Shown here: positions 4,101 through 36,910 of the stretch, in pieces
How positions within the stretch are numbered: position 1 is the stretch's first letter
Layout: each line of letters opens with the position of its first letter
Assembly (NCBI RefSeq): GCF_900128995.1
Contig: NZ_FQUE01000006.1
Location: 124,001 to 188,000, forward strand
Length of the DNA stretch: 64,000 nt
Direction of reading: 5' to 3'
Source: Loktanella atrilutea
Lineage (GTDB): Bacteria > Pseudomonadota > Alphaproteobacteria > Rhodobacterales > Rhodobacteraceae
Made by a program: the position numbers and the translations under genes
The notes under the pieces: generated by a model
Database searches by the model: none
Seen by the model: the letters and a program-made list of their open reading frames with translations, nothing else
Told to the model about the DNA's origin: nothing

Positions 4101-5573
4101 CTACGAAGCCAATGTGCGAGAGGCCTCGATCCGCAGGACGGGTCCGTCCTGCATTGCGCGGCGCAGCCGGCGCGACAGGGTATCGACCGCCAGTGTCAGC
4201 AGGACCGAAACCACCAGCAATGCCACCACCCGGTCCATTCTCAGGGTCTGCACATTGCTCTGGATGTAGAAGCCGAGGGTTCCGATGCCCAGCAGGCCCA
4301 TGATCGCGCTGTCGCGCAGAATGATCTCCCACCGATACAGGCACAGCGCCCAGAACGAGGCTGTCAGGCGCGGCAACAGGTCCCATGCCCAGAGCGTCAG
4401 GCCACGCGGCGCGTCGGGACGCTGCGGCAGGCCCCGCGCCTCTCTGCCCAGCAAATGGGCGATGATGGCGCCGTTATGCAGCCCGAGCGCCAGTGCCGCA
4501 GGCAGCATCGAAGGCCCGAGGATCTGCAGCAGCACGAAAGCCAGCATGTAGTCCGGGATGGATCGCAGAACGACCAGCACGGCATGTCCTACCAGCGCCC
4601 CTGCCCGGCCCACCACGCCCGGCACGATGGCCGGAAAGGCCAGCGCGGCCAGCACGGCCGCCCCGGCTAGGGCAATCTGTGACAGGATTAGCGTCGCGAC
4701 GGATCCGGGCAGCGCCTGCGCGACGAAGACCTTGTCCAGCCAGCCACCCCAGTCCGCCCCGCTGCGCAGGGGGGCCGGCACGATGTCCGCCAGAAAGCGG
4801 AGCACCGCGCCATCCCCCATCGGCGGCACGACGATGGTCATCAGTGCCGCGACAGAGGCGAGCAGAAAGACTGGCGCCAACCGCCAGATCATCCAGATCC
4901 GCAATGGCAGGATCAGTGCAAGGAATAGTGCCAGCACCGCCACGGCCTGTCCGTACTGCGCCTGCTTGAAGGCCGTCTCGAGCTGGAACCCCAGCGTGGG
5001 GAGGCCGATGAAGCCCAGCACTGCGGACGAACGCAGCCCGCATTCCAGCCGGTAGAGCGTATACGTCCGCATCTGCGGCAGGGCCTGCGGCAGGCGCACC
5101 CACAGCAATTGGGTCAGCCGCGGGACGGCCCGCGGCAATCGCGCGGCGGCTAGTGCGTCATCAAGGTATTCGGAGAAGACCTTGGCGAAGATCCCGGCAT
5201 AGGGCAGCCCGATCGCCAGCACCCCGGTCAGCGGCGACAGGCCGGTCACGCTGAACAGCAGCAGCGCCCAGAACAGTTCGTGCACCGCACGCAGGCAGAT
5301 GCAGGCGAGACGGACCGGCGTCGCGCCGTAGAACGGCGCCATCAGCAGGCCCGTCACGGCGCCAAGCGCCACGCCGCAGAACGCGAATGCCACGGTCAGC
5401 GCCGCGGCCCCGAGCATGCCGGCGGGATCGCTGAAATCCGGATGCAGCAAGCCGTGTCCGATGGCCGCCAGCGTCATCCAGGGGTCGGGCCGCGTGGCCT
5501 GCAGGTCCGCAAGCCACAGCGCCGCCACTGTCGCCAGCGCGAAGCCGGCCAGCACGTCGCGGCGGCGGATCAT
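4101..5573 (-). CDS. PhnE-like ABC transporter permease, two permease domains in one chain
   Basis: This 490-residue inner-membrane protein contains two consecutive permease units of about 245 residues. The N-terminal unit carries VRLPQALPQMRTYTLYRLEC-type and GFIGLPTLGFQLE motifs. The C-terminal unit repeats the pattern with DLLPRLTASFWALCLYRWE and LLGIGTLGFYIQS. Usual PhnE proteins are single units near 260-290 residues that dimerise, so this is a tandem fusion. Its ATG overlaps the stop of the upstream ATPase by four bases (ATGA), giving an operon in the order binding protein, ATPase, permease. The substrate is an oxyanion of the phosphonate, phosphite or possibly selenate type. Confidence 0.88.
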   Translation of the reverse strand: MIRRRDVLAGFALATVAALWLADLQATRPDPWMTLAAIGHGLLHPDFSDPAGMLGAAALTVAFAFCGVALGAVTGLLMAPFYGATPVRLACICLRAVHELFWALLLFSVTGLSPLTGVLAIGLPYAGIFAKVFSEYLDDALAAARLPRAVPRLTQLLWVRLPQALPQMRTYTLYRLECGLRSSAVLGFIGLPTLGFQLETAFKQAQYGQAVAVLALFLALILPLRIWMIWRLAPVFLLASVAALMTIVVPPMGDGAVLRFLADIVPAPLRSGADWGGWLDKVFVAQALPGSVATLILSQIALAGAAVLAALAFPAIVPGVVGRAGALVGHAVLVVLRSIPDYMLAFVLLQILGPSMLPAALALGLHNGAIIAHLLGREARGLPQRPDAPRGLTLWAWDLLPRLTASFWALCLYRWEIILRDSAIMGLLGIGTLGFYIQSNVQTLRMDRVVALLVVSVLLTLAVDTLSRRLRRAMQDGPVLRIEASRTLAS

Positions 5574-6229
5574 CGGTAAAGCGCCAGCAGATCGGCCTCG
5601 GTAAGCTCTGTCGCGGGCGCGTCGATGGCGATGCCACCCGCCCGCAGGCCGACGATCCGTGTGGCGACGCGCAGCGCCTGATCCACATCGTGCAGCGCAA
5701 GGATGGACGTCGCGAACCGCCCGCCCAGGTGGTCCAGCAGGGCCGCGCCCTGCGCCGGGTCCAGCGCTGTCACAGGCTCGTCGCCCAGCACGACCTCTCC
5801 ACCGCGCAGCAGGGCCCGGGCCAGCGCCACCCGCTGCCGCTGGCCGCCGGACAGTCGGGACACCCGGTGGCGCCCCATGCCCGCCAAGCCGACGACATCG
5901 AGGATGCCCTCGACCCGCGACCTTTCAGACCGGCGCGGCCACAGCAGGCAGCGCAGGTTGCCCGCGGTGCCGTGGTCGTCCAGCACGCCCATCCAGACGT
6001 TGTGGAAGACCGACAGACTTCCGACCAGCCCGTGGTCTTGCGGCACCAGCGCGGTGCGCTTGGTCAGCCGGTCGTGCAGGGTGGCCAGCAGCGTGCTTTT
6101 GCCGACACCGCTGCGTCCCAGAAGCACGATGCGCTCGCCGGGCGCGACCTGCAGGGTCACCCCCCGCAGCACCGCCTGCCCGCCCCAGCCCAGCGTCTGG
6201 TCCGTCAGCGCGACAAGCGGTGCCGTCAT
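5570..6229 (-). CDS. PhnC-like ABC transporter ATP-binding protein
   Basis: This 219-residue nucleotide-binding subunit powers the adjacent permease. Walker A reads GRSGVGKST, the signature is LSGGQRQRVALARALL and Walker B is VVLGDEPVTALDP. It is somewhat shorter than typical PhnC. Its ATG overlaps the stop of the binding-protein gene as TGATG, and its own stop overlaps the permease start, which suggests translational coupling of all three genes. Confidence 0.9.
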   Translation of the reverse strand: MTAPLVALTDQTLGWGGQAVLRGVTLQVAPGERIVLLGRSGVGKSTLLATLHDRLTKRTALVPQDHGLVGSLSVFHNVWMGVLDDHGTAGNLRCLLWPRRSERSRVEGILDVVGLAGMGRHRVSRLSGGQRQRVALARALLRGGEVVLGDEPVTALDPAQGAALLDHLGGRFATSILALHDVDQALRVATRIVGLRAGGIAIDAPATELTEADLLALYR

Positions 6230-7077
6230 CAGTCGATCAGGTCCAGCGCCTGCGCCGTGTCCACGATGGGCTGGTAAAGCGCGTCATCGGCGGGAATGAA
6301 GGCACTGCGCGGGAAAGAGGCCAGCAGGTCCGGATCGTCCATGCCGATCAGCGCCGCCTGCACCTTTTCGGCAAAGCCTTCGCCAAAGCGGTCATCGACG
6401 TCGCCGCGGATCGTCCAGTTGTAATCTGGATAGGGCGGCGTCTGCCAGATCACGGTGGTGGCCGCGGCCTCGGGCGCACCGTCGGCGACGGCGGTGTCGT
6501 AGACCGAATAGTTCAGTGCACCGACTTCGTAGGCGCCGGAAGCGACCAGCCGCAGGGTCTGCCCGTGATCGCCGGAAAATCCGACAGCACTGAACAGGTC
6601 GGACGGTGCCTTGCCAGTCTTCTCTCGGATCCAGTATTCCGGCATCAGGCGACCGGAGGTCGATGTCTCTGCCCCGAAGGTAAAGGAGCGTCCCGCCAGA
6701 TCGGGAAATGCCGTGCCTTCGGTCAGGCCCGTGTCATTGTTGGCGATGAAATAGGTGACGAAGGTCTCGTCCTCTGCCCCCTGCGCGATGGCATGAGAAT
6801 CCGGCACCGCGATGCGCGCCTGCACGCCGGACAGACCGCCGAACCAGCCCAGCTGGATCTGGTCGTTGGCAAAGGCGGTGACGGCGGCGGCATAGCTTTT
6901 CACCGGGACGTACTGCACGTCGACGTCGAGTGTTTCTGACAGATAGTCCGCCACCGCGCCGAAACGTTCGACCAGCCGCGATTCGTCGTCATCGGGAATG
7001 GCCGAGAAATAAAGCGTCTGGGCTGCGGCGGACTGGCCCGCCGTGATCGCAAGCAGGCATGCGAGATATTTACGCAT
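6229..7077 (-). CDS. PhnD/selenate-type ABC transporter substrate-binding protein
   Basis: This is a periplasmic binding protein of 282 residues with signal peptide MRKYLACLLAITAGQSAAAQ. The mature part belongs to the PhnD superfamily. Motifs include LYFSAIPDDDE, YVPVKSYAAAVTAFANDQI and WFGGLSGVQAR, with TSTSGRLMPEYW in the middle. The FSAIPD start and GGLSGVQAR stretch recall the group annotated as putative selenate binding proteins rather than classical phosphonate PhnD; this is from memory of the family and is not proven. It is the first gene of the three-gene operon. No C-P lyase, phosphonatase or selenophosphate synthase gene is in the window. Confidence 0.85.
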   Translation of the reverse strand: MRKYLACLLAITAGQSAAAQTLYFSAIPDDDESRLVERFGAVADYLSETLDVDVQYVPVKSYAAAVTAFANDQIQLGWFGGLSGVQARIAVPDSHAIAQGAEDETFVTYFIANNDTGLTEGTAFPDLAGRSFTFGAETSTSGRLMPEYWIREKTGKAPSDLFSAVGFSGDHGQTLRLVASGAYEVGALNYSVYDTAVADGAPEAAATTVIWQTPPYPDYNWTIRGDVDDRFGEGFAEKVQAALIGMDDPDLLASFPRSAFIPADDALYQPIVDTAQALDLID

Positions 7078-27729: not shown

Positions 27730-29433
27730 ATGCCGTACCGTGCCCCCGTCGCCGATTTCCGTTTCCTGCTCGACCATCTGGCCGGTTTCAAGGCCGTGAC
27801 CGCGACGGACCGGTTCGCAGAGGCCACGCCGGACATGACCGACGCGATCCTGACCGAGGCCGCGAAGATGTGCGAGGAGGTGCTGGCCCCCCTGAACCGC
27901 GCCGGTGACCTGCATCCCGCGCGCCTCGAAAACGGCATCGTGCGGACCTCCCCCGGTTTCGCCGATGGCTACAGGGCCATCGCCGAGGGCGGCTGGATCG
28001 GCATGTCCGCCAGTCCGGACAATGGCGGCATGGGCCTGCCGATGGCGCTGACCACCGCCGTCAACGACATGATGTCGGCAGCCTGCCTGTCGCTGCAACT
28101 CAACCCCCTGATGACCCAAGGCCAGATCGAGGCGCTGGAACATCATGCCAGCGACGCGCTGCGCGACCTATACATCCCGAAGCTCATCTCGGGCGAATGG
28201 TGCGGCACGATGAACCTGACCGAGCCGCAGGCCGGGTCCGACGTCGGCGCCCTGCGCACGAAGGCAGAGGATAACGGCGACGGCACCTATGCGATCACGG
28301 GCCAGAAGATCTACATCTCCTGGGCCGACAACGACTTCACCGACAACGTCTGCCACCTCGTCCTCGCCCGCCTGCCGGACGGCGTGCCGGGGACCAAGGG
28401 GATCAGCCTCTTCCTCGTGCCGAAATTCATTCCAGACGCAGACGGCAATCCCGGCAGGGCCAACGACCTGCGGGTCGTCAGCCTCGAACACAAGCTCGGC
28501 CTGCACGGCAGTCCCACGGCGGTCATGGACTACGCCGGCGCCACCGGCTGGATGGTCGGGCCGGAGAATGGCGGCATGGCGGCGATGTTTACCATGATGA
28601 ACAACGCCCGCCTCGGCGTCGGAACGCAGGGCATCGGCGTGGCCGAAGGGGCCTACCAGCATGCGCTGGCCTACGCGCAGGACCGGCGTCAGGGCAAGGC
28701 CGGCGGCAGCGGGTCGATTATCGAACATGCCGACGTGCGCCGGATGCTGGCAGAGATGAAGGCCGACATCTTTGCCGCCCGTGCCATCGCCCTGATGTGT
28801 GCCTGCGCCATCGACATGACGACCGCCACGGACGACGCCGCCTGGCGTGCCCGCGCGGCCTTTCTCACACCGATCGCCAAGGCCTTCGGCACCGATACCG
28901 GCATCAAGGTCGCCTCGACCGGGGTGCAGGTCCACGGCGGCATGGGTTTCGTCGAGGAGACGGGCGCCGCCCAGTACCTGCGCGACGTCCGCGTCACGGC
29001 GATCTACGAGGGGACCAATGGCATTCAGGCGATAGACCTCGTGGCCCGCAAGCTGATGGACGGCGGAGAGGCCGCCCGCCTGCTGATCGAGGAAATCCAG
29101 ACCGGCGCCGAAGGCGCGCGGGCCACCCATGCCGATCTGGCAGAGGCCGTCTGGCAAGCGGCAGAGGATCTGCGCGAAACGACCGACTGGCTGGTGGCGC
29201 AGACCGACCTGCAGCAACGGTTCGCCGGGGCCGTGCCCTACCTCGCCGCCTTCGCCCGCGTCCTCGGGGGCCATGCCCACCTCGCTGCCGCCATCCACGG
29301 CGACAGCGGCCGGGCACGCCTCGCGACATTCTACATCAGGCGTCTCCTGCCAGAGGTCACGGGCCTCCTGACCCAGGTCCGCGAGGGCGCCGACAACCTG
29401 CTGGAGATCTCCCCGGACGATCTCGCGGCCTGA
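27730..29433 (+). CDS. Acyl-CoA dehydrogenase, DmdC-like (methylmercaptopropionyl-CoA dehydrogenase group)
   Basis: This 567-residue FAD enzyme introduces a double bond in an acyl-CoA. Motifs include the LTEPQAGSDVGALRTKA substrate/FAD loop, the GGMGFVEETGAAQYLRD C-terminal signature, and YEGTNGIQAIDL containing the catalytic Glu. A long C-terminal extension and the N-terminus MPYRAPVADFRFLLDH match the DmdC branch used in DMSP demethylation-pathway degradation, which has many paralogues in roseobacters. DmdA, DmdB and DmdD are not nearby, so the substrate is open. The ATG follows a GAGGAGG ribosome site. Confidence 0.88.
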   Translation: MPYRAPVADFRFLLDHLAGFKAVTATDRFAEATPDMTDAILTEAAKMCEEVLAPLNRAGDLHPARLENGIVRTSPGFADGYRAIAEGGWIGMSASPDNGGMGLPMALTTAVNDMMSAACLSLQLNPLMTQGQIEALEHHASDALRDLYIPKLISGEWCGTMNLTEPQAGSDVGALRTKAEDNGDGTYAITGQKIYISWADNDFTDNVCHLVLARLPDGVPGTKGISLFLVPKFIPDADGNPGRANDLRVVSLEHKLGLHGSPTAVMDYAGATGWMVGPENGGMAAMFTMMNNARLGVGTQGIGVAEGAYQHALAYAQDRRQGKAGGSGSIIEHADVRRMLAEMKADIFAARAIALMCACAIDMTTATDDAAWRARAAFLTPIAKAFGTDTGIKVASTGVQVHGGMGFVEETGAAQYLRDVRVTAIYEGTNGIQAIDLVARKLMDGGEAARLLIEEIQTGAEGARATHADLAEAVWQAAEDLRETTDWLVAQTDLQQRFAGAVPYLAAFARVLGGHAHLAAAIHGDSGRARLATFYIRRLLPEVTGLLTQVREGADNLLEISPDDLAA

Positions 29434-31615: not shown

Positions 31616-31951
31616 TCAGAACGCGCCGGACAGGAACAGTCCGATGTAGAGCGCGGCAAAGCCTGCAAGGATTGCCCAGATCACCTGCCGGGTCCAAAGC
31701 CCGACCGCCAGCGCGACGGCGGCGGCGACAAGCCTGACGGCATCGGGATGTCCACCGGTCGCCGCCGGCCACAGCACCAATGGCGCCACCAGCCCCGGCA
31801 GTACCGCCACAGGCGTATAGCGCAGCAGGCGCAACACGATCGGCGGCATCGGCCGGTTTCCGATCAGCCCGAGGAACGAGAACCGGATCAGAAAGGTCGC
31901 CACCGCCAGGGCAGCGATGATGCCCCAGATCTCTGCGGTGCTATAGCTCAT
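31616..31951 (-). CDS. azlD: AzlD family branched-chain amino acid exporter small subunit
   Basis: The 111-residue protein has about four membrane helices and the AzlD pattern (TFLIRFSFLGLIGNRPMPP, LRYTPVAVLPGLVAPLV). It pairs with AzlC to export branched-chain amino acids. Its ATG overlaps the azlC stop by four bases. Confidence 0.92.
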   Translation of the reverse strand: MSYSTAEIWGIIAALAVATFLIRFSFLGLIGNRPMPPIVLRLLRYTPVAVLPGLVAPLVLWPAATGGHPDAVRLVAAAVALAVGLWTRQVIWAILAGFAALYIGLFLSGAF

Positions 31952-32643
31952 GTCCGGTCCTCCACCAGTACGCCGACGACCATGGCGCAGGCCGCTGCGA
32001 TCAGCAGGCCGAAGCCGGAAGGCAATCCGCTCAGCGCCAGCGCCACCACGACCGAGGTGAAGGCCGCCGCAACATGCGCCAGCGTCCGCAGCATCGGCGC
32101 CACCATGGCGAGAAAGGTGATCGGCAGCGCGAAGTCGAGCGCCATGGCCGGCGGGATCGTCGCCCCGACCAGCACCCCCACCGCCGTCATGCCGCACCAG
32201 ATCGGCGTGATCGGTGTCGCCACGCCGAAGAAATAGGCGATCCGCGCGCGCACGCCCATGGCGGGCCGCTCCTCATAGGCCTTCACGCTCGCCAGATAGG
32301 TCTGGTCGAACAGCAGGTAGGCGACGCAGGCCCGCTGCCACAGGGGCGCCTGCCCCAGCGCCGGCACGAGGGCCGCGGAATACATCGCCATCCGCAGGTT
32401 CACGGCCAGCGCCGCCAGCAGGACCAGCGCGATACCGGCCTGATCGACCATCATCTGCAGGGCCGCGAACTGCGAGGCGCCGGCAATGACCAGCACGCTG
32501 AACCCCATCGCCTGCCCCAGCGTCAGGCCCGCATCCGTCGCAGCCACGCCGAACAGCAGCGAGAACGGCACCACCACGATCACGAAGGGCGCACCGGCCC
32601 GGACCCCCTCCCAATAGACGGATTTCGTTGTGGCAGAGGTCAT
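31948..32643 (-). CDS. azlC: AzlC family branched-chain amino acid exporter large subunit
   Basis: This 231-residue inner-membrane protein has six or more helices and the family motifs VVPFSLLFGVAATDAGL, AGASQFAALQMM, LAVNLRMAMYSAAL and FDQTYLAS. It is the upstream member of an azlCD operon and is divergent from fdhD, 62 bases away. Confidence 0.93.
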   Translation of the reverse strand: MTSATTKSVYWEGVRAGAPFVIVVVPFSLLFGVAATDAGLTLGQAMGFSVLVIAGASQFAALQMMVDQAGIALVLLAALAVNLRMAMYSAALVPALGQAPLWQRACVAYLLFDQTYLASVKAYEERPAMGVRARIAYFFGVATPITPIWCGMTAVGVLVGATIPPAMALDFALPITFLAMVAPMLRTLAHVAAAFTSVVVALALSGLPSGFGLLIAAACAMVVGVLVEDRT

Positions 32644-32705: not shown

Positions 32706-33584
32706 TTGGCCACCCTCACCGACACGCCCTATACCATCGCCCCGCAACCGGACCTGCCGCGCCTGACCCGTGCCGTCACCGGCACCGATCAGACCGGGCG
32801 CGCGGTGGACCTGCGCGTGGTGGAAGAACGCCCGCTGACCATCTACCTCAACAGCCGCGAAATCGTCACGGCGATGACGATCGGCGACTACCCGGCCTAT
32901 CTGGCGCTGGGCTTCCTGCGCAATCAAGGCATGCTGTCGGACAGCGACGTCGTCACGGCCGTCGATTACGACGCGGAACTCGAGGTCGTCGTGGTGCGCA
33001 CCGAAGTCGATTCGGACCACGAAGCGAAGCTGCAGAAGAAGACCCGCACCTCCGGCTGCGCCGTCGGCACGGTCTTCGGCGACATGATGGCGGGACTCAC
33101 GGGTCTGAAGCTGCCGCAGACCCCGGTCAGGACGTCCGATCTCTACGCGCTCGCCGCCACCATCAATCGCACGCCCTCACTCTACCTCGAGGCGGGCGCC
33201 ATCCACGGCACGGTGCTTTGTCAGGGTGAACGCCCCCTCGTCTACATGGAGGACGTCGGCCGCCACAACGCGGTGGACAAGATCGCTGGCTGGATGTTCG
33301 CGGAAGGCATCACCGCCGACGACAAGCTGCTCTACACGACCGGCCGGCTGACATCGGAGATGGTCATCAAGACCGCGCTGATGGGCATCCCCACCCTCGT
33401 CTCCCGCTCCGGTTTCACCGCTTGGGGGGTCGAGATCGCGCAGCAGGTCGGCCTCACGCTCGTCGGCCGGATGAAAGGCCAGCGATTCATCTGCCTCGCC
33501 GGCGATCACCGCCTGATCCGCGACATGGACCCTGCCAGCGTGCCGGACGAGGCGCGTCGGCAGGGACGGAAAGCCGCCGAATGA
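32706..33584 (+). CDS. fdhD: Formate dehydrogenase accessory sulfurtransferase FdhD
   Basis: This 292-residue protein transfers sulfur to the molybdenum cofactor of formate dehydrogenase. It has ERPLTIYLNSREIVTAM, ALGFLRNQGM, YMEDVGRHNAVDKIAG and TTGRLTSEMVIK. At the sulfur-carrying loop the sequence is TSGCAVGTVF, with only one Cys where E. coli has two. The start is TTG, the only sensible start near the conserved N-terminus. It opens the molybdenum-cofactor cluster and lies 151 bases before mobA. No formate dehydrogenase genes are in the window. Confidence 0.95.
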   Translation: MATLTDTPYTIAPQPDLPRLTRAVTGTDQTGRAVDLRVVEERPLTIYLNSREIVTAMTIGDYPAYLALGFLRNQGMLSDSDVVTAVDYDAELEVVVVRTEVDSDHEAKLQKKTRTSGCAVGTVFGDMMAGLTGLKLPQTPVRTSDLYALAATINRTPSLYLEAGAIHGTVLCQGERPLVYMEDVGRHNAVDKIAGWMFAEGITADDKLLYTTGRLTSEMVIKTALMGIPTLVSRSGFTAWGVEIAQQVGLTLVGRMKGQRFICLAGDHRLIRDMDPASVPDEARRQGRKAAE

Positions 33585-33680: not shown

Positions 33681-33735
33681 GACGGCGGGCGGGGCGCCTT
33701 TGCGCATCGCGCAAACAGCGCCGCACGGCGGCCCC
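33681..33735. repeat. Intergenic dyad repeat, copy 2
   Basis: This copy shares GGGCGGGGCGCCTT and AACAGCG with the element at 29507. It holds a perfect inner hairpin TTTGCGC-ATC-GCGCAAA. It abuts the mobA start codon, so it may influence translation or termination between fdhD and mobA. Confidence 0.55.
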
Positions 33736-34317
33736 ATGATCCAGCCCCACGGACTGATCCTGATGGGCGGGCGCGCGACCCGCATGGGCGGCGGCGACAA
33801 GGGCCTGCTGCCCCTCGGGGACACCACCATCCTCGGCCATGTCCTCGACCGCCTCGCCCCGCAGGTCGACCGCGTCGCGCTCAACGCCAACGGCGACCCC
33901 GCACGCCTTGCACACCTGAACCTGCCCGTCCTTCCCGACGGCCTGCCGGATCACCCCGGCCCCCTCGCCGGCACCCTCGCGGGCCTCGACTGGGCCGCGT
34001 CTCTCGGGGCGACGCATATCGTCACCGCCGCCGCGGACACGCCCTTCCTGCCCTGCGATCTCGTCCCGCAACTCCTTCTGGCGGGCGGAGGGTCAGGCTT
34101 CGCCCTCGCCGCCTCCCCCGGCGGCCGCCAGCCGACCTTCGGCCTCTGGCCCGTCGCCCTGCGCGATGCACTCCGCACGGCCCTGAACGACGGCCTGCGC
34201 AAGATCGTCCAGTTCACCCGCGCCCACGGCGCCGGCACCGCCGCGTTCCCCGACGATGCCGCCTTCTTCAACGTGAACACGCCCGACGACCTCGTGACGG
34301 CGAGGGCCATGCTGTGA
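33736..34317 (+). CDS. mobA: Molybdenum cofactor guanylyltransferase MobA
   Basis: This 193-residue enzyme attaches GMP to molybdopterin to form the guanine dinucleotide cofactor. The nucleotide-binding loop is LILMGGRATRMGGGDKGLLPL and later motifs are ITAAADTPFLPCDL-like (VTAAADTPFLPCDL) and GGRQPTFGLWPV. The start ATGATCCAG was chosen because conserved sequence begins three residues later. Its stop overlaps the mobB start (GTGA). Confidence 0.95.
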   Translation: MIQPHGLILMGGRATRMGGGDKGLLPLGDTTILGHVLDRLAPQVDRVALNANGDPARLAHLNLPVLPDGLPDHPGPLAGTLAGLDWAASLGATHIVTAAADTPFLPCDLVPQLLLAGGGSGFALAASPGGRQPTFGLWPVALRDALRTALNDGLRKIVQFTRAHGAGTAAFPDDAAFFNVNTPDDLVTARAML

Positions 34318-34817
34318 GGATTTTCGGCGTCACCGGCTGGAAGAACGCGGGCAAGACCGGCCTTATGGAACGGCTCGTGACCGACATCGCCTCCCGCGGC
34401 TTCACCGTCTCCACTCTGAAACACGCGCACCACAGCTTCGACGTGGACCAGCCCGGCAAGGACAGCCACCGCCACCGCACCGCGGGGGCGTCTCAGGTCC
34501 TGCTCGCCTCCCGCACCCGCTGGGCGCTGATGACAGAACTGCGCGATGCGCCGGAACCACCCCTTTCCGATCTCCTCGCGCAACTCGACCCCGTCGACCT
34601 GATCCTCGTCGAAGGCTACAAGCGCGACACCCACCCCAAGATCGAGGCCCACCGCGCCGCCACCGGCAATCCACTGATCGCGCCGGACGACCCCAGTATC
34701 CGCGCCGTCGCCACCGACACCCCCCTCACCCTGGACCGCCCGCAGTTCCACCTCGACGACACCGTCGCCATTGCAGACTTCATCCTGCGGCAGGTCGGCC
34801 TGCCGGACCGCGCATGA
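34314..34817 (+). CDS. mobB: Molybdopterin-guanine dinucleotide biosynthesis protein MobB
   Basis: This 167-residue GTP-binding protein has the P-loop GWKNAGKTGLMERL, the HAHHSFDVDQPGKDSHRH segment and LILVEGYKRDTHPKIE. It assists MobA. It starts with GTG overlapping the mobA stop and ends overlapping the next ATG (ATGA), so mobA-mobB-moeA are tightly coupled. Confidence 0.95.
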   Translation: MRIFGVTGWKNAGKTGLMERLVTDIASRGFTVSTLKHAHHSFDVDQPGKDSHRHRTAGASQVLLASRTRWALMTELRDAPEPPLSDLLAQLDPVDLILVEGYKRDTHPKIEAHRAATGNPLIAPDDPSIRAVATDTPLTLDRPQFHLDDTVAIADFILRQVGLPDRA

Positions 34818-36910
34818 TCGTCGATAGCGTCATCATGGTCGACTGGTCCGGCGGCCATGACCGCGGCGCCACCCCCAAGCGCGACGCGATCTGGACATGC
34901 ATCGCCCGCGCAGGAACGGCCGAGGCCCCGGTCTATCACCGCAACCGGCAGGTTGCCGAAACCTATCTGCGCGACACCCTCGCAGCCGAACTGGCCGCGG
35001 GCCGCCGCACCCTCGCCGCCTTCGACCTCTGCTTTGCCTACCCGACCGGTTTCGCGGAACGCCTGACCGGCACCGACGACCCGTTGGTCCTCTGGGACTG
35101 GTTCGCCGACCGCGTGGAGGACAGCCCCGCGGCCAACAACCGCTTCGCTCTTGCCGGGCAGATCAACGCCATGTTCCCCGGCACCGGCCCGTTCTGGGGC
35201 AACGGGCGCCCCCATCACGACGTCGACCATCTGCCGCGCAAGGGCCGCGACCGCGCAGGTTACGGCCTGCCCGAGCACCGTGCCACCGACCGTGCCGCGC
35301 CGGGCGCCTTCTCGCCCTGGCAACTCTCCGGCGCGGGCGCCGTCGGCGGTCAGGTCATCATGGGGTTCCCCACGCTCTCCCGCCTGCGCCGCCACTTCGG
35401 CCCCGCCCTCTCGGTCTGGCCATTCCAGCCCCCCGACACGCCGCTGGTGCTGGCAGAGAGCTACTTCTCCCTGCTGCCCACGACACTGCTGACAGACCAT
35501 CCGATCCGGGACGCGGCGCAGGTGGCGCTCTACGCGCGTGCCTTCTCGGCGCTCACGCCGTCCGAGTGGGATCGCGTGCTCGACCAAGACCCCACGCCCG
35601 AGGGCTGGGTGCTCGGCCTCGGCCACGCCGACCTGCTGGCACGCGCGGCCCGGCCGGCCCTGACCCCGCCGCCCCTGCGCAACGACTGCTTCGCCATGCC
35701 TCAGGGCGCACACTGGACGCCGGTGGACGAGGCTCTTGCCCACCTGCGCGCCCACCTCGCCCCCATTACCGGCACCGAGACGATCCCCCTTATGCAGGCC
35801 GCCGGACGTATCCTCTCCGTCCCGGTGACCGCCGCGCGCAGCCACCCGCCCCATGACAATGCCGCCGTCGACGGTTATGCCTTCGCAGGCCCCCTGCCTG
35901 CCGGCCCCCACACCCTTCCCCTGCACCCCGGCCGCGCCGCCGCCGGTCAGCCATTCTCCGGTACCGTCCCGCCGGGCCACGCACTCCGCATCCTCACCGG
36001 CGCCAACATCCCCGCCGGCACCGATACCGTTGTCCTGCAAGAGGACACGACGTCCAGCCCGACCCACATCGCCCTGCACGGTCCCCTGAAGCAGCGCGCC
36101 AACGCCCGCCGTGCGGGCGAGGACATGGGCGCAGGCGACGTCGTCCTGCCCGTCCGCCGCCGCCTGACCCCCGCCGACCTCGCCACATTGGCGGCCTGCG
36201 GCACCGCCACGGTCACGGTCCACAGGCCGCTGCGCGTCGGCGTTCTGTCCACCGGCAACGAACTCCGGGCGCCCGGCCAGCCGGCCACCCACGGTCAGAT
36301 CTTCGACGCCAACCGCGCCATGCTGCTGTCCGATATCGCGTACTGGGGACACACCCCCGTCGACCTCGGCATCGCCCCCGACGATCGGCAGACCCTGCAA
36401 AATATCCTCGACGACGCAGCCACCCGTTGCGACGCGATCCTGACCTCGGGCGGCGCTTCGGCCGGGGACGAGGATCACATGTCCGCCCTGCTGCAGGGAA
36501 CCGGAAGCCTCGCCCTCTGGCGTATCGCGATGAAGCCGGGCCGCCCGCTGGCGCTGGGGCTCTGGCAGGGCAGACCGGTCTTTGGCCTGCCGGGAAATCC
36601 GGTCGCCGCACAGGTCTGCGCCCTGGTCTTCGCCCATCCGGCGCTGGCGGTTCTCGCCGGCGGCGACTGGCCGGTGCCGCAGGGCTTCGATGTGCCTGCC
36701 GCCTTCACGAAATCAAAGAAGGCCGGCCGCCGGGAATACCTCCGCGCCCGCATCGCCAATGGTGCGGCAGAGGTCTTCGGTTCCGAAGGCTCCGGCCGGG
36801 TCAGCGGACTCAGCTGGGCCAGTGGCCTCGTCGCCCTGCCGGACGAAGCGGCAGAGATCGGCCCCGGCACCCCCGTCACCTATCTGCCGTTCGGAAGCTT
36901 CGGCCTGTGA
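34814..36910 (+). CDS. moeA: MoeA molybdopterin molybdenumtransferase fused to an N-terminal RNase-H-like domain
   Basis: This 698-residue protein has two parts. From about residue 295 it is MoeA, which inserts molybdate into adenylated molybdopterin: HPPHDNAAVDGYAF, TGANIPAGTDTVV, LSTGNELRAPG, LTSGGASAGDEDH, KPGRPLALG and the GLPGNPVA loop. Residues 1-294 are not part of MoeA. They show MVDWSGG (Asp10), AAFDLCFAYP (Asp71), LVLAESYFS (Glu215) and IRDAAQVALYARAF (Asp233), a spacing reminiscent of DUF429-type RNase-H-fold proteins. An ATG at codon 295 could allow an internal start giving MoeA alone. A normal MoeA is near 400 residues, so the extension is unusual. It is coupled to mobB and to the following acetyltransferase by 4-bp overlaps. 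Confidence 0.92.
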   Translation: MIVDSVIMVDWSGGHDRGATPKRDAIWTCIARAGTAEAPVYHRNRQVAETYLRDTLAAELAAGRRTLAAFDLCFAYPTGFAERLTGTDDPLVLWDWFADRVEDSPAANNRFALAGQINAMFPGTGPFWGNGRPHHDVDHLPRKGRDRAGYGLPEHRATDRAAPGAFSPWQLSGAGAVGGQVIMGFPTLSRLRRHFGPALSVWPFQPPDTPLVLAESYFSLLPTTLLTDHPIRDAAQVALYARAFSALTPSEWDRVLDQDPTPEGWVLGLGHADLLARAARPALTPPPLRNDCFAMPQGAHWTPVDEALAHLRAHLAPITGTETIPLMQAAGRILSVPVTAARSHPPHDNAAVDGYAFAGPLPAGPHTLPLHPGRAAAGQPFSGTVPPGHALRILTGANIPAGTDTVVLQEDTTSSPTHIALHGPLKQRANARRAGEDMGAGDVVLPVRRRLTPADLATLAACGTATVTVHRPLRVGVLSTGNELRAPGQPATHGQIFDANRAMLLSDIAYWGHTPVDLGIAPDDRQTLQNILDDAATRCDAILTSGGASAGDEDHMSALLQGTGSLALWRIAMKPGRPLALGLWQGRPVFGLPGNPVAAQVCALVFAHPALAVLAGGDWPVPQGFDVPAAFTKSKKAGRREYLRARIANGAAEVFGSEGSGRVSGLSWASGLVALPDEAAEIGPGTPVTYLPFGSFGL

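Follow-up and report, generated by a model that had tools for sequence, protein, structure and literature searches.

A domain of predicted RNase-H-like fold, joined to MoeA, represents an unnamed family recurrently linked to molybdenum cofactor and vitamin B12 genes

In a 64,000-nucleotide stretch of the Loktanella atrilutea genome (contig NZ_FQUE01000006.1, positions 124,001 to 188,000; hereafter the window), a gene on the plus strand (34814–36910) encodes the molybdenum cofactor (Moco) synthesis protein MoeA joined to an additional N-terminal domain (NTD), which is the subject of this study. The gene is a single unbroken open reading frame (ORF) of 698 codons. Residues 303–693 of its product comprise a complete MoeA, as revealed by Pfam matches to MoeA_N (residues 303–463, E 2e-39), MoCF_biosynth (476–612, E 9e-26) and MoeA_C (628–693, E 5e-11), in this order; the MoeA part as a whole, residues 303–698, is encoded at 35720..36907 (+), and the NTD, residues 1–283, at 34814..35662 (+). 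Residues 1–294 alone produced no Pfam match at E ≤ 1, and the description of the product as MoeA fused to a non-MoeA domain, given in a first-pass annotation of this DNA, thus stands. Upstream and in the same direction lie the genes for the formate dehydrogenase accessory protein FdhD (32706..33584, +; Pfam FdhD-NarQ, E 1e-70), the molybdenum cofactor guanylyltransferase MobA (33700..34317, +; TIGR02665, E 6e-53, above the cut-off) and MobB (34314..34817, +; Pfam MobB, E 4e-48), the latter overlapping both MobA upstream and the fusion gene downstream by 4 bases. An antisense ORF of 673 amino acids (34616–36637, minus strand) runs across the region of the fusion gene and is taken for an artefact of high G+C content. 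No Rfam family reached its gathering score between positions 28000 and 42000 of the window, and hence no known Moco riboswitch was found there.

The NTD ends near residue 283, judging from homologues in which both parts are encoded separately. In the split homologues L013, L067 and L015, domain and MoeA occupy separate ORFs and MoeA opens with M-T/S-L-x-PPPLRNDCFAL, its start being equivalent to about residue 284 of the fusion. Ruegeria sp. TM1040 likewise has separate genes for the domain (TM1040_RS04220) and MoeA, which share an ATGA overlap, and its MoeA starts with MTLTPPPLSNDCFAL. As these starts match, the PPPLRNDCFA peptide of the fusion is MoeA's own start, which places the boundary near residue 283. 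Residues 284–298 (PPPLRNDCFAMP; 35663..35707, +) comprise a linker and this MoeA N-terminal peptide. In a model of the full-length fusion, the predicted local distance difference test score (pLDDT) drops below 50 at residues 283–292 and 294–298 and the predicted template modelling score (pTM) is 0.50, as would fit a pair of loosely connected domains. The domain first delimited at 294 residues is therefore real, but its end is shifted to residue 283 or so. It had also been proposed that an ATG at codon 295 could produce free MoeA. Of the 33 fused proteins, 17 have Met at the position of this codon, 15 have Leu and one has an undetermined residue; the ATG is therefore no conserved start. In addition, inspection by eye of the DNA ahead of it in the window revealed nothing like a Shine-Dalgarno sequence, and an internal start at this position is not supported.

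The fusion itself might be thought to result from a sequencing or annotation error that joined two overlapping genes, considering the split genes in L013, L067, L015 and strain TM1040, the latter with its ATGA overlap. Moreover, in one genome (G005; L062, also L011) the domain at 4217–6683 is split over two frames (residues 1–90 and 90–294), either by a frameshift or by a sequencing error. However, independent assemblies refute such an artefact, which we regard as extremely improbable: NTD and MoeA share one open frame at 33 distinct loci from genomes and named records, and in Salipiger sp. CCB-MM3 the fused gene is annotated with a length of 2169 bases. In the annotated records examined, the fused protein is termed ‘gephyrin-like molybdotransferase Glp’ and the free domain ‘hypothetical protein’. 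In this lineage, the fusion probably arose by loss of an ATGA stop-start overlap as it is present in Ruegeria sp. TM1040.

AlphaFold2, supplied with 21 sequences, predicted the structure of NTD residues 1–294 with a pLDDT of 93.5 and a pTM of 0.90. The model has strands at residues 5–10, 26–32, 40–42, 66–70 and 211–215 and helices at 45–61, 177–198 and 232–245, that is, the mixed sheet and helices of an RNase H-type fold. Foldseek returned the TerL nuclease, RNase H1 and YqgF among its best PDB rows, mixed with a transposase, ASKHA kinases and others, and no PDB match at E ≤ 0.001. VIA-align 2 was run over the 1000 best chains of Foldseek, and its best 50 rows were considered. They comprise Cas12a, Cas9, CasPi and IscB, nuclease domains of terminases, SPT6/Tex, RuvC, YqgF/RuvX and MutS proteins as well as a single sugar kinase, with Z values of 5.1–7.2 and identities of 5–12%. 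All these rows presumably carry an RNase-H-like or related fold. Neighbours outside nucleic-acid metabolism in the two lists are ASKHA kinases and an exopolyphosphatase. By themselves, the Z values are middling. Comparisons with other collections were negative: the model found no match in a viral structure library at E ≤ 0.001, the single NTD sequence matched only two versions of MoaD among PDB sequences (E 0.098, taken as chance), and the family profile A1 retrieved nothing from PDB sequences at E ≤ 5.

Homologues were collected by searches of 61, 385 and 398 genomes, which gave matches in 26, 76 and 49 genomes, respectively, with differing cut-offs and overlapping draws. The family sample comprises 100 distinct members including that of the window. 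It was picked from the loci of the best 30 matches of the 385-genome search and the best 20 of the 398-genome search, from loci of named records and from chosen regions; many weak matches were left out, and the sample is no census and over-represents close relatives. L001, L002, L063 and L110–L113 had been dropped before this count, and L011 (214 residues, frameshifted), L021 (241) and L027 (111) were dropped before alignment, leaving 97 members; L147 was omitted from alignment A3. Homology between the eight most distant members and the remaining 89 is indicated by hhalign (99.9%).

In the 97 alignable members, D10, D71, E215, E263, R156, V177, P203 and G268 are invariant. The first acidic site, D10, lies in the D10-W11-S12 motif (34841..34849, +), where strand 1 ends, the second, D71 (35024..35026, +), follows directly on the strand at 66–70, E215 (35456..35458, +) ends the strand at 211–215, and E263 (35600..35602, +) belongs to an EGW motif. 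D233 (35510..35512, +), at the start of the helix at 232–245, is present in 91/91 members outside a group labelled by RarA/CrcB neighbourhood and in 2/6 inside it; by eye, 6 of the 8 most distant members have DDH, DDN or SDH near this position. The pattern D10, D71, E215 and D233, noted in the first annotation, is thus borne out, and conserved acids are found where the RNase-H-like superfamily has them, namely at strand 1, strand 4 and a C-terminal helix. Since the structural rows agree and the acids occupy the expected elements, the strand ends and the start of the helix at 232–245, we consider it very probable that the NTD adopts an RNase-H-like fold, as first suspected, and belongs to an as yet unnamed family with this predicted fold and conserved acidic residues. 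W94 and W128 (60/60) and N118 (59/60) mark the family among members at Moco and vitamin B12 loci. The NTD is under purifying selection: dN/dS, the ratio of nonsynonymous to synonymous substitution rates, is 0.13–0.26 in three comparisons, versus 0.10–0.18 for the MoeA part. A defence or phage origin of the domain was rejected, because none of three proteins matched families in PADLOC or PHROGs at E ≤ 0.1. As a side observation, the IMG/VR contigs L184 and L185 encode a relative of the domain (33%) near ORFs that resemble phage tail and baseplate genes by eye.

When a reference gene within 2.5 kb of a member was used to assign its context, Moco loci accounted for 44 of the 100 members, vitamin B12 loci for 18 and RarA/CrcB loci for 6, and the remaining 32 were located elsewhere. 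The domain is therefore not confined to the neighbourhood of mobAB-moeA, and the earlier idea, which placed a nuclease-like or structural domain only within Moco synthesis, was too narrow, the family being also adjacent or fused to B12 enzymes or standing alone. In-frame fusion partners are MoeA in 33 members, CbiC in 8, MobB in one and MobA in one. Next to the domain, Moco loci contain MobA, MobB and MoeA with FdhD, and B12 loci contain CbiC with CbiX, CobL, CobU, CobQ or CbiB; Pfam confirms CbiC in L054 and L055, CobU in L056, CobQ in L117 and CobD/CbiB in L124. Twenty-nine Moco-locus members carry the family code of the window and the remaining 15 stem from named Paracoccaceae or Roseobacteraceae records, whereas the B12-locus members spread over 11 family codes. 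Matching genomes usually contain a single match (24/26 in the 61-genome and 72/76 in the 385-genome search), and some doubles are one gene in two pieces. In two genomes of the window's family (G009 and G014), the only copy detected lies within a B12 cluster as a fusion with CbiC, and FdhD, MobA, MobB and MoeA form a Moco locus devoid of the domain. Genomes with strong matches encode MoeA_N in 42/43 and CbiC in 30/43 cases, the latter compared to 108/342 of the others (Fisher p 2e-6, a statistic that ignores relatedness). A quick tree, built with long-branch warnings, requires 4 changes of the Moco label and 6 changes for B12; for either label, well-supported branches force no fewer than 4 of them. 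With shuffled labels, the averages are 31.7 and 16.9 changes, respectively.

Several side observations concern the surroundings of the gene. By eye, an AzlD/AzlC-like ORF pair lies divergently upstream of fdhD in the window (31616–32643, minus strand); a like arrangement is annotated upstream of fdhD in Ruegeria sp. TM1040, and an AzlC relative adjoins many Moco-locus members. The genome of the window also encodes a second MoeA (G000:C26:305893-307014) with 39% identity to the MoeA part of the fusion, a second FdhD (G000:C21:88326-89042) and one Fdh-alpha above the cut-off on contig C40.

The position of the domain within Moco loci is compatible with a non-catalytic role, that is, a scaffold or ligand-binding module that joins MobB and MoeA, or CbiX and CbiC, or that passes on a metal ion or an intermediate. 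Both MobB and MoeA adjoin the domain or share its frame in 36 of the 44 Moco-locus members, and wherever the order is listed the domain sits between the two. Three genomes of the same family in which no copy was detected (G010, G011 and G020) encode MobB and MoeA within one shared open frame, and in Methylorubrum extorquens the assembly of the tungsten cofactor is proposed to take place on a platform of MoeA1 and MobB (PMC13197769). In genome G007, the locus (L061, 3804–5864) lacks FdhD, MobA and MoeA and retains only MobB fused to the NTD. However, the presence of D10, D71, E215 and E263 in 97/97 members with different partners is not what one would expect of a pure scaffold, and the low-confidence linker together with the pTM of 0.50 does not predict firm packing on MoeA. 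We consider such a non-catalytic role distinctly unlikely.

The conservation of the acidic residues favours metal-dependent hydrolysis, and the acidic set probably binds divalent metal ions. A small nucleotide-type substrate is favoured because the partners are cofactor enzymes, because MobA and CobU are guanylyltransferases by name and because the domains at Moco loci are acidic: the isoelectric point (pI) is 6.1 for the NTD of the window and has a median of 5.6 for Moco-locus members, as compared to 8.5 for 33 DUF429 proteins, which is a weak hint. A further weak hint is that DUF429 is reported to occur with NUDIX or RelA/SpoT domains (PMC3985635). A third is found at L110 (583–2214), where a phosphomethylpyrimidine/pyridoxal-kinase-like domain carries a true DUF429 domain (Pfam E 6e-55) at its C-terminus, a further case of a cofactor enzyme with a predicted RNase-H-like domain attached. 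On these grounds, a small nucleotide-type substrate is a possibility that we favour with considerable doubt, and a nucleic-acid substrate is almost as likely.

The domain could instead be an ordinary RNA or DNA nuclease of the RuvC/YqgF/RNase H type that is merely located in cofactor operons, its fusions having been fixed by drift or co-expression. Most of its structural neighbours are nucleic-acid enzymes or domains thereof, and the most distant clade sits mainly beside RarA, CrcB and RluC: L060, L148, L149, L150 and L153 lie beside RarA/MgsA, which is the adjacent called gene in L148 and L150, and L060, L149 and L153 are also near CrcB and RluC. Three other members adjoin a gene of the CCA/polyA-polymerase family. 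A precedent is the mycobacterial MSMEG_4305, a fusion of RNase HI with CobC that its authors deem fixed by drift (PMC7466739). Drift, however, does not readily account for fusion to four different cofactor enzymes and for the repeated placement at B12 loci with the label changes that the tree demands. Moreover, within a single bacterial family the copy resides now at one cofactor locus and now at the other. An ordinary nuclease of this kind is somewhat unlikely in our view.

Taken together, we tentatively favour, as quite possibly correct, the view that the NTD represents a new family of predicted RNase-H-like metal-dependent hydrolases recruited to cofactor operons and probably acting on a nucleotide-type substrate. 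The predicted fold, the invariance of D10, D71, E215 and E263, the purifying selection and the recurrent linkage or fusion to Moco and B12 genes are computed directly. Mechanistically, the domain would cleave a phosphodiester or pyrophosphate bond in a nucleotide-type substrate that arises during metal cofactor assembly. Candidates, close to the guanylylation steps that MobA or CobU would catalyse, are a nucleotide-linked intermediate, a by-product or a damaged form. The flexible linker might keep the domain next to MoeA, and its activity may raise yield or provide quality control rather than constitute an essential step. The Moco and B12 pathways are textbook knowledge. A more specific proposal, which we judge unlikely as it stands, is that the assembly of both cofactors shares a hitherto unnoticed accessory step: a usually single-copy RNase-H-fold metallohydrolase, situated sometimes in one operon and sometimes in the other and fused to MobA, MobB, MoeA or CbiC, would act on the cofactor rather than on nucleic acid and dispose of nucleotide-linked intermediates, by-products or damaged forms.

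A number of observations weigh against the hydrolase interpretation. Of the 100 members, 32 show neither a Moco nor a B12 context, and 6 of the 8 members of the most distant clade adjoin RarA/MgsA or CrcB/RluC, which is partly a nucleic-acid setting. CbiC is absent from 13 of the 43 genomes with strong matches, and among genomes with weaker matches there is no association with CbiC (12/33, p 1.0). One genome of 1.5 Mb and 92% completeness (G234) has the domain, and neither MoeA_N nor CbiC was found in it at E ≤ 1e-20. Fifteen of 28 further genomes from the window's family yielded no NTD match, a count that leaves out the genus of the window, in which the domain is present in 8/8; as 13 of these 15 retain FdhD, the domain is not required for FdhD-dependent enzymes. 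No VIA-align Z value for the NTD reaches 8, and according to the tool's own caveat values below 8 can reflect a common arrangement; that the acidic residues meet in one site is what we infer from the topology. Finally, the median pI is near neutral for B12-locus members (7.5) and other members (7.1), and charge therefore does not exclude nucleic acid.

In sum, the initial observation is confirmed as real and correctly described in its main point, the phenomenon being broader than first thought, and its initial interpretation is partly supported. A conserved, catalytic-looking yet unnamed domain is built into both cofactor pathways in many Alphaproteobacteria. Should it act on cofactor intermediates, it would add a shared step or a quality-control activity to two metal-cofactor pathways.

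The closest named relative is NF011066/PRK14495 (‘putative MobB / unknown domain fusion protein’), whose C-terminal part (positions 168–448 of 452) corresponds to the NTD (E 2.5e-62) and which matches 10/10 other family members scanned. Its cut-off of 596 bits applies to the whole MobB fusion protein, whereas here the NTD scores 211 bits and the separate MobB 195.6 bits, both below it. The name indicates neither a fold nor a function, and it omits MoeA and the B12 genes. No literature mention of PRK14495 was found, and the titles and abstract openings of the listed matches in open-access literature on DUF429, or on Moco or B12 with RNase H, fusions or gene clusters, contained no description of the domain. 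Neither a different fold nor an established Moco-related role has thus come to light: the model is RNase-H-like and PRK14495 calls the domain unknown.

Resemblance to DUF429, which had been proposed at the outset, does not hold at the sequence level. DUF429 (PF04250; COG2410, COG4328, COG4923) belongs to clade D of the RNase-H-like superfamily, with this fold predicted and strands 1 and 4 bearing the potential active-site residues (PMC3985635). By eye only, the order of motifs looks similar in the two, that is, D at strand 1, DxP.G at strand 4, E.YP or E.HP, a D..DA helix and a C-terminal EGW or GLR; unlike DUF429, the NTD family is marked by W94, W128 and N118. None of 31 diverse members matched PF04250 at E ≤ 1, their best match to any Pfam family having an E of 0.063, and there was no PF04250 match in the window protein (E ≤ 1) or in the genome of the window. 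Alignment by hhalign of the 89-member family profile with that of 32 DUF429 sequences, a set without archaeal DUF429, gave a probability of 2.05% over 23 columns; the partial sequence L182 was left out of the DUF429 profile and counted in the DUF429 median pI, and L183 was not recovered by the seed profile. In tblastn searches of plasmids with three distant-clade members as queries, the matches were annotated only as hypothetical protein or Glp, or not at all, and none as DUF429. Membership in DUF429 is thus rejected at this level, and the two families are possibly distant cousins.

RuvC, YqgF and Tex/SPT6 are among the best structural neighbours of the NTD, with VIA-align Z values of 5–7 and root-mean-square deviations of 3–4 Å. 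They differ from it in sequence, with 5–12% identity in the best 50 rows and no significant match among PDB sequences, and the NTD has a long stretch between the strand at 66–70 and the helix at 177–198. With regard to domain architecture, the nearest parallel is MSMEG_4305/Rv2228c of Actinomycetales, in which RNase HI is fused to CobC (PMC7466739). Both cases unite an RNase-H-fold domain, predicted in the present one, with a vitamin B12 enzyme; there the pair is RNase HI and CobC, whereas here a domain without Pfam match is joined to MoeA, MobA, MobB or CbiC in Alphaproteobacteria. Should the domain prove to be a nuclease, it would represent, after RNase HI-CobC, another RNase-H-fold nuclease fused to a B12 enzyme.

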